This document shows, one piece after another, positions 62,126 to 62,946 of a stretch of DNA of 64,000 nucleotides (positions within the stretch are counted from its first letter, which is position 1; the number at the start of each line of letters is the position of its first letter). A program made the position numbers and the translations under genes. The stretch is taken from positions 62,001 to 126,000 of the forward strand of contig NZ_LQZQ01000051.1 of the NCBI RefSeq assembly GCF_001593005.1, in the 5' to 3' direction. The notes under the pieces are model-generated. The model saw nothing but the letters and a program-made list of their open reading frames with translations, had not been told where the DNA came from and searched no databases. Source of the stretch: Roseivirga ehrenbergii. GTDB taxonomy: Bacteria > Bacteroidota > Bacteroidia > Cytophagales > Cyclobacteriaceae.

Positions 62126-62593
62126 TCAACTATCCAACTGAATGCTTCGGGTTAAAGTTTCTTCAAGTATGATAAAGGTTTCTGTACGTTCAATGCCGTC
62201 TACTTTCTGAATTTTATCGTGGAGAATATCCTTCAAGTGATCGGTTCCTTTGGCGTAAATTCTCACAAACATGGAGTAATTCCCCGTAGTGTAGTGAATA
62301 CTAGTAATCTCATGTATTTTTTTCAGTTGTGTGGCTACTTTTTCGTACAGGGAACTTTTAGAAAGGAAGACCCCCAAAAAGGCAGAGACATTATAACCAA
62401 GTTTAGCAAGGTTTAAATCGAGTGAAGCGCCTTTTACTACACCCATTTTTTCAAGCTTGCTCATTCTTACATGTACAGTCCCGCTAGAAACAAATGCTTG
62501 TTTGGCTACTTCGGTATAGGGCTTTTTTGCGTTATGCTGAAGAATAGAGAGGATTTTCAAATCCACATTATCGATTTCGTAATTATCGGCCAT
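62126..62593 (-). CDS. Lrp/AsnC-family transcriptional regulator
   Basis: 155 residues: an N-terminal winged helix-turn-helix (VDLKILSILQHNAKKPYTEV, FVSSGTVHVRMSKLEKMGVV) and the RAM/AsnC ligand-binding domain (GTDHLKDILHDKIQKVDGIE and RTETFIILEE). Such regulators sense amino acids. Its 5' leader carries a 17-nt palindrome (62608-62624), a candidate autoregulation site. It is divergent from the tRNA-like RNA gene. Confidence 0.94.
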   Translation of the reverse strand: MADNYEIDNVDLKILSILQHNAKKPYTEVAKQAFVSSGTVHVRMSKLEKMGVVKGASLDLNLAKLGYNVSAFLGVFLSKSSLYEKVATQLKKIHEITSIHYTTGNYSMFVRIYAKGTDHLKDILHDKIQKVDGIERTETFIILEETLTRSIQLDS

Positions 62594-62703: not shown

Positions 62704-62711
62704 TACCTTTG
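62704..62711 (+). promoter_or_regulatory. -7 promoter element for the tRNA-like RNA
   Basis: TACCTTTG, an exact TAnnTTTG match, predicting transcription start near 62718, about 22 nt before the acceptor stem. No good -33 TTTG was found. Confidence 0.55.
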
Positions 62712-62739
62712 AAACAGTTTCAAAAGAGAAGCTATACAC

Positions 62740-62859
62740 TGTAGGGTGATGAAACAGGCAGCCATGCCCTCCTTTCTCGAGGGTGGAGAAAAAGAAATAA
62801 ATCTGAACTACCTGACGACTAATCTCTCCGTGAAGGTTCGACTCCTTCCCCTACAGCCA
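62740..62859 (+). ncRNA. tRNA-like RNA with oversized variable region
   Basis: A cloverleaf is readable directly. Acceptor stem TGTAGGG (62740-62746) with CCCTACA (62849-62855), discriminator G62856, encoded CCA (62857-62859); C62739 can add an eighth pair with the discriminator. D arm ATG/CAT (62749-62751, 62763-62765) with a loop holding GG at the 18-19 positions, similar to tRNA-Leu D arms. Anticodon arm CCCTC/GAGGG (62767-62771, 62779-62783) with 7-nt loop CTTTCTC: T33 is kept and the formal anticodon is TTC, but position 37 is T rather than a purine. The variable region is 48 nt (62784-62831) with a GGAGA/TCTCC stem and a 35-nt loop. T arm GAAGG/CCTTC with loop TTCGACT. A terminator follows at 62913. 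It is not tmRNA-like in length or layout. Confidence 0.75.
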
Positions 62860-62912
62860 TTCACATTGAATATTAGTTTGGAAACGTATTCAGTTTGTTT
62901 TTTCTTAGATTG

Positions 62913-62946
62913 AAAGGAGGCTTGTTTGTTAGCCTCCTTTTTTTTT
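62913..62946 (+). terminator. Terminator of the tRNA-like RNA gene
   Basis: AAAGGAGGCT pairs with AGCCTCCTTT across an 8-nt loop, running into nine T. Confidence 0.92.

Follow-up and report, generated by a model that had tools for sequence, protein, structure and literature searches.

A tRNA may be kept only as an amino acid donor outside translation, as is the staphylococcal non-proteinogenic tRNA-Gly for peptidoglycan, and the RNA described here resembles it in principle while differing in amino acid, pathway, and structure. Nearest to the role that we propose are the systems of tRNA-dependent asparagine synthesis known from Deinococcus, Thermus, Bdellovibrio, Legionella, and S. aureus, in which a non-discriminating AspRS places aspartate on tRNA-Asn, an RNA with U1:A72, and GatCAB amidates it (PMC4206432). 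AsnRS is present in these systems and asparagine synthetase often absent (PMC4206432), as in the genomes discussed below. Their carrier is the translating tRNA-Asn, whereas the carrier proposed here is a separate RNA that is apparently unable to decode; a discriminating AspRS would suffice here, because this separate RNA has the Asp anticodon determinants. A survey listed 18 genera, Bacteroidetes among them, that possess AsnRS, GlnRS, and GatCAB while lacking asparagine synthetase, and its suggestion was that AspRS must mischarge tRNA-Asn (PMC4206432). The aspartate identity set consists of G73, G34, U35, C36, and C38, with G2-C71 being a minor element (PMC9976931). GatCAB amidates Asp-tRNA in response to U1-A72, and G1-C72 and U20a prevent this reaction (PMC9976931; PMC4206432).

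The RNA was found in a 64,000-nt stretch of Roseivirga ehrenbergii DNA, here called the window. A blastn search of 59 relatives detected it in 41, often in tandem copies, and 24 of these copies were aligned (alignment A1) and used to build the covariance model R1. The features of the locus, in window coordinates and with the evidence for each, are the following.

62739 to 62859, plus strand: whole tRNA-like RNA, from position -1 to the encoded CCA (R1 match of 129.8 bits; covariation)
62740 to 62746, plus strand: acceptor 5' strand TGTAGGG, pairing with CCCTACA over 7 bp
62749 to 62765, plus strand: tRNA-Leu-like D arm, ATG-loop-CAT with GG, loop AAACAGGCAGC, A at 20a (covarying D stem; comparison with native tRNA-Leu)
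62767 to 62783, plus strand: anticodon arm CCCTC-CTTTCTC-GAGGG (covariation; sequence)
62774 to 62776, plus strand: anticodon triplet TTC (U34 U35 C36), followed by a pyrimidine at 37 and C38 (GUC in most family copies)
62785 to 62829, plus strand: extended variable arm with a GGAG/CTCC stem, an inner stem of 2 to 3 bp, the internal loop AUAAA/CUAA, and a variable hairpin
62832 to 62848, plus strand: T arm GAAGG-TTCGACT-CCTTC (covariation; conserved bases)
62849 to 62857, plus strand: acceptor 3' strand, discriminator G73, and C74 (G73 and C74 in 239/239 copies)
62704 to 62711, plus strand: promoter -7 element TAnnTTTG of the Bacteroidota type, TACCTTTG (sequence)
62913 to 62946, plus strand: intrinsic terminator hairpin AAAGGAGGCT/AGCCTCCTTT with a T run (sequence)
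62126 to 62593, minus strand: AsnC-type regulator of the Lrp/AsnC family, divergent from the RNA gene (Pfam, NCBIfam, comparison with E. coli AsnC)

Every part of a tRNA cloverleaf is present in the 120 nt from 62740 to 62859, including T8 and G9 between the acceptor and the D arm, and the C at 62739 could form an extra pair with G73. The original prediction, made from the window alone, had described a complete cloverleaf with intact stems, a variable region of 48 nt (62784 to 62831), and a -7 element and terminator of its own, all of which we find as described. The TAnnTTTG motif occurs within the last 60 nt upstream in 104 of 243 copies, compared with 7 in shuffles. Two further claims are true of the window copy and do not extend to the family: CCA is encoded here but only in 36 of 239 copies, and the gene is single in the window but often occurs elsewhere as tandem arrays of one to five copies.

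ARAGORN calls no tRNA at the window locus or at 14 diverse homologous loci, and none of the 4227 Rfam models has a threshold match over the RNA in the window or at 20 diverse loci, the window matches being at chance level. The case for the RNA rests on comparison, since folding the window copy by itself gives a result only slightly better than that of shuffles (z of -1.8). In the 24 homologues of A1, 94.5% of the cells pair, against about 50% with slid partners, and 13 pairs change on both sides, while 0 of 500 shuffles reach any of these measures. Among 109 distinct copies outside the model building, 95.6% of the cells pair, against 51 to 57% with slid partners, and 22 of 32 pairs change on both sides, although this alignment was fitted to R1 and hence leans towards it. 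Helices 4 to 6, those of the variable arm, covary in both alignments, and T8 G9, GG, and TTCGA, the bases of a canonical D-T elbow, are conserved.

The R1 matches within the phylum fall into two groups, the family itself at about 90 to 130 bits and at least 110 nt, and short tRNA-Leu-like class II tRNA genes at 50 to 66 bits and 85 to 91 nt, which are the only other matches. The RNA shares its D arm and class II body with tRNA-Leu, the class II body of the original prediction being supported as a Leu-like one, but it differs from tRNA-Leu in having G73 rather than A73, an Asp-type loop, mostly a pyrimidine at 37, and a variable arm of 34 to 128 nt across the family. Allo-tRNAs and tRNA-Sec-like RNAs also combine a long variable arm with unexpected anticodons, including GUC, but they are serine acceptors with an 8/4 or 9/3 branch, whereas the RNA has a 7/5 branch (7-bp acceptor, 5-bp T stem, 7-nt T loop) and Asp-type invariant bases. 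With YrlA and the bacterial Y RNAs it has tRNA mimicry and the D-T elbow in common. Unlike YrlA, it has a free acceptor end, and its genome lacks the TROVE domain protein Rsr, which is present in only 9 of the 59 relatives; membership in the Y RNAs was rejected for this reason.

Several other candidates were rejected as well. A decaying tRNA is excluded by the covariation and the phylum-wide conservation, in line with the claim that this is a functional non-canonical tRNA and not a product of random decay; the conservation at the lrp locus and the compensatory changes in relatives, which had been proposed as a check, are both found. There is no match to tmRNA or any known Rfam family, and an origin from a phage or plasmid was discarded for want of a match in either sequence collection. 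Mimicry of an anti-Shine-Dalgarno sequence by CCCTCCTTTC in the anticodon arm was discarded because neither the stem nor the loop is constant across other lineages, and an alternative pairing of TCTC in the loop with GAGA in the variable arm is not conserved.

The RNA family is conserved across much of the phylum Bacteroidota. The covariance model yielded 239 distinct complete copies from Cytophagales, Sphingobacteriales, Chitinophagales/Saprospirales, and one Ignavibacteria genus. A DNA pattern search of GTDB genomes matched at least 120 stretches, and among the matches listed are Cytophagales, Sphingobacteriales (Pedobacter, Mucilaginibacter), Chitinophagales, Saprospirales, and a few Ignavibacteria assemblies. 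In the Ignavibacteria genus (g170; loci L046, L049, and L165), several tandem copies lie beside the same divergent AsnC-type gene, and these copies from outside the class may be either ancestral or transferred.

The invariant bases, counted over the 239 distinct complete copies, point to two enzymes at once. The aspartate set G73, G34, U35, C36, and C38 is found in 239, 211 (88%), 239, 239, and 239 copies, respectively, and G2:C71 is kept in all 239. At the same time, G1:C72 is replaced by U1:A72 in 237 copies, followed by U3:A70 in 236, and position 20a is A in 238 of 238 readable copies and never U, so that the signal for GatCAB is present without the base that would block it. The U35 C36 C38 combination occurs in the own genome only in native tRNA-Asp, and the commonest family loop, CUGUC-U-C, differs from that of native tRNA-Asp, CUGUC-A-C, solely at position 37. 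The positions that matter for decoding, where an elongator tRNA has U33 and a purine (A or G) at 37, seem to have been released: U33 is found in only 204 copies, and position 37 is T in 192, C in 35, G in 12, and never A, for which reason the RNA should not decode. There is also no decoding gap to fill, as the own genome has an ordinary tRNA set that includes tRNA-Glu(UUC), tRNA-Asp(GUC), and four tRNA-Leu. Judged by its bases, the RNA thus combines an anticodon side bearing the AspRS set with an acceptor side bearing the signal for GatCAB. In the window genome, almost every native tRNA gene encodes the discriminator and C74 without CCA; the 3' end of the RNA follows this local rule, from which we infer that CCA is added to it.

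Two points are difficult for charging by AspRS. G1:C72 is an aid to the positioning of the acceptor end in bacterial AspRS, and its loss is a point against charging, although the same loss is required for GatCAB. The window copy has U34, which should weaken recognition by AspRS and is a real difficulty. The formal Glu anticodon that the original prediction read from this base is nearly confined to the window genus, the family loop being Y-N-G-U-C-Y-C with GUC and C38. U34 together with U35, C36, and C38 is seen in the window (62774) and at loci L001 to L018 and L071, where L012 and L014 belong to other genera and the remainder of L001 to L018 to the window genus. Genome G048 has a compact 80-nt form that keeps the acceptor and loop bases of the family but has no variable arm (L268, G048:C23:55335-55414, minus strand), its variable region being of the short class I type; genome G222 of the same genus has a full-length copy.

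The AspRS of the own genome is single and of the bacterial type (TIGR00459, 729 bits), and its scores for the archaeal non-discriminating type stay below the cut-offs. In the N-terminal region that binds the anticodon it resembles the Flavobacteriaceae enzyme, which must be discriminating because Flavobacteriaceae are without GatB; this likeness is an argument that the own enzyme would be discriminating too.

The neighborhood of the RNA suggests a link to asparagine. A gene belonging to a single Lrp/AsnC cluster is present at 79 of the 119 loci that were examined and is divergent from the RNA in 78 of these, at a distance of 39 to 244 nt, the remaining one being an over-extended reading frame; the other 40 have no Lrp/AsnC gene within the stretch examined. 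The window regulator matches Pfam AsnC_trans_reg and an HTH_AsnC-type domain, has AsnC as its best NCBIfam model (153 bits, below the cut-off of 227), and aligns gap-free with E. coli AsnC along 150 residues at 41% identity. The E. coli asnC gene and asnA, which encodes asparagine synthetase A, are divergent across a gap of about 152 nt, and in the window the gap between the AsnC-type gene and the RNA is about 146 nt. In an RNA-negative relative (G111), the divergent neighbor of the AsnC-like gene is AsnB-like (491.8 bits; cut-off 499). The RNA therefore occupies the place of asparagine synthetase in other bacteria, the AsnC-type gene being divergent in each case. The regulator is probably asparagine sensing.

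A link with GatCAB was predicted from the invariant bases and the AsnC neighbor, and the search for GatB, taken as the marker of GatCAB, came after; prediction and search result were written down together. In a set of 66 genomes, all of which have AsnRS, GatB is found in 30 of the 30 RNA-positive genomes scored first and also in two that were added later, G048 and G148, the latter carrying a full-length RNA on inspection of the locus, which brings the RNA-positive genomes to 32. Within the class, genomes with both GlnRS and AsnRS have GatB in 27/27 RNA-positive and 0/20 RNA-negative cases (p of about 1e-13, phylogeny being ignored). The sole class genome of the set with GatB and without the RNA, G099, lacks GlnRS and hence needs GatCAB for glutamine. 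The joint absence of RNA and GatB recurs within f22 and f23, in the Flavobacteriaceae-like families f24, f25, and f29, and in f28, suggesting several independent events, as judged by family labels rather than by a tree. In a sample of 247 class genomes scored for RNA and GatB, all 26 further RNA-positive genomes have GatB, where the base rate of GatB is 192/247 and most GatB-positive genomes are RNA negative; one of the 26, G489, has an RNA copy that looks degenerate. Outside the class the link fails, as G088, G203, G235, and G244 have GatB and GlnRS and no RNA.

As a separate observation, genomes G402, G461, and G488 of f82 and G473 and G500 of f121 have GatB_N matches of only 1e-40 to 1e-44, which would suit a GatE-like protein or another paralogue rather than GatB.

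The RNA-positive genomes are mostly without AsnA and without AsnB of the E. coli type. AsnA is found in 3 of the first 30 RNA-positive genomes, or 4 of 32 when G048 is included, and E. coli-type AsnB is seen solely in RNA-negative genomes: with the AsnB model (cut-off 499), eight AsnB-like proteins of RNA-positive genomes fail at 229 to 312 bits, whereas the two tested proteins of RNA-negative relatives pass at 886 and 903 bits. AsnA or E. coli-type AsnB is present in 17 of the 20 class genomes without RNA and GatB, counting G111, whose protein lies just under the cut-off. The RNA-positive genomes have AsnB-like paralogues above the broad TIGR01536 cut-off, which might be an alternative source of asparagine.

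We propose, with a probability of roughly 0.7, that the RNA is a dedicated non-decoding tRNA serving as carrier for tRNA-dependent asparagine synthesis, its charging and amidation being deduced from its bases and their company. The original prediction had left the choice between a functional tRNA, a regulatory mimic, and a decaying tRNA; the evidence points to the first in the special form of a non-decoding amino acid carrier for GatCAB. The RNA would be transcribed from its own promoter, divergently from the AsnC-type regulator, and would be matured and given CCA like the tRNAs of the cell. The single bacterial-type AspRS would load aspartate by way of G73, the anticodon, and C38, and GatCAB, which requires U1:A72, would convert Asp-RNA to Asn-RNA. 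The product would be barred from translation by its large variable arm and by the altered loop, in which U33 is not kept and position 37 is mostly a pyrimidine; this matters because an Asn-charged RNA with a GUC anticodon would put asparagine at Asp codons. Asparagine would then be freed for AsnRS and other uses, with AsnC adjusting its supply. We also consider it fairly likely that the whole family is a widespread group of non-coding tRNAs solely for amino acid biosynthesis, which, through a hybrid AspRS/GatCAB identity, turn Asp into Asn off the ribosome and at the place of asparagine synthetase, and that this explains why many Bacteroidota keep GatCAB beside GlnRS and AsnRS.

It is unlikely, though deserving of some weight, that the Asp- and then Asn-charged RNA acts mainly as a sensor or riboregulator, the charging reporting on the supply of Asp, Asn, and Gln and the variable arm being the regulatory output. 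The AsnC neighbor, the conserved AUAAA/CUAA internal loop, and a lineage-specific UUGACCA motif do suggest a wider role, but amino acids are already sensed by AsnC, the compact form of G048 does without the arm, and synthesis accounts better for genomes that keep GatCAB and have lost AsnA and AsnB. The same compact form, having lost the arm and kept the loop and acceptor bases, speaks against charging by SerRS with serine for a serine-dependent process outside translation. Such an allo-tRNA-like function is conceivable, because a long variable arm and G73 are what SerRS recognizes, and GUC anticodons are known among the 8/4 allo-tRNAs (PMC7609411). As SerRS ignores the anticodon, however, the invariant U35, C36, and C38 would have no explanation, nor would the link with GatB, and the D arm resembles that of tRNA-Leu and not that of tRNA-Ser; we regard serine charging as improbable.

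The identity elements would equally be retained if the RNA bound AspRS or GatCAB unproductively as a decoy or scaffold tuning their activity, and the U34 of the window genus would then matter less. We hold this to be quite improbable, since discriminator and C74 follow the native 3' end rule throughout the 239 copies, which suits an RNA that receives CCA and makes use of it, and since a decoy does not explain why class genomes with GlnRS and AsnRS have GatB only when they have the RNA. For the window genus alone, U34 U35 C36 being the Glu anticodon, the RNA could be a glutamate acceptor on which GatCAB makes Gln-RNA, given that Glu-tRNA is also amidated by GatCAB (PMC4206432). This is very improbable indeed: G1-C72, U2-A71, A37, and other needs of GluRS (PMC9976931) are absent, the Asp element C38 is kept, and the genome has its own GlnRS.

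Asparagine synthesis on a separate carrier would answer the puzzle of the surveyed genera that have AsnRS, GlnRS, and GatCAB but no asparagine synthetase. If true, a non-decoding carrier would permit a discriminating AspRS with no risk of asparagine at Asp codons, and an entire RNA family would be maintained to produce an amino acid instead of protein. The RNA apparently occurs in many genomes that are already sequenced, yet goes uncalled by ARAGORN and Rfam; no description of it or its neighborhood was found in the open-licence literature, which does not in itself prove novelty.

The variable arm and the surroundings of the RNA show some further peculiarities. AAA...CTAA of the internal loop is found in 209 of 239 copies. 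About 68 of the 239, among them many Chitinophagaceae-like, Cyclobacteriaceae, and Pedobacter copies (e.g., L053, L047, and L050), have the motif GGRUUGACCAC within the variable hairpin, a possible binding site for a protein or RNA. Mucilaginibacter copies (e.g., L104, L155, and L159) carry a conserved trailer, TTCTCATAATTTAGGTTTATAATTGGTTAGTAAA, before the terminator, which is longer than the terminator requires. Locus L220 (G000:C45:482800-483600, minus strand) has two weak tRNA-model matches of 46.9 and 31.7 bits that ARAGORN does not call, in surroundings that look like a mobile-element tRNA array. Near the Pedobacter-type locus L050, a match to the Flavo-1 RNA (RF01705) at 634 to 701 lies just below the gathering score.
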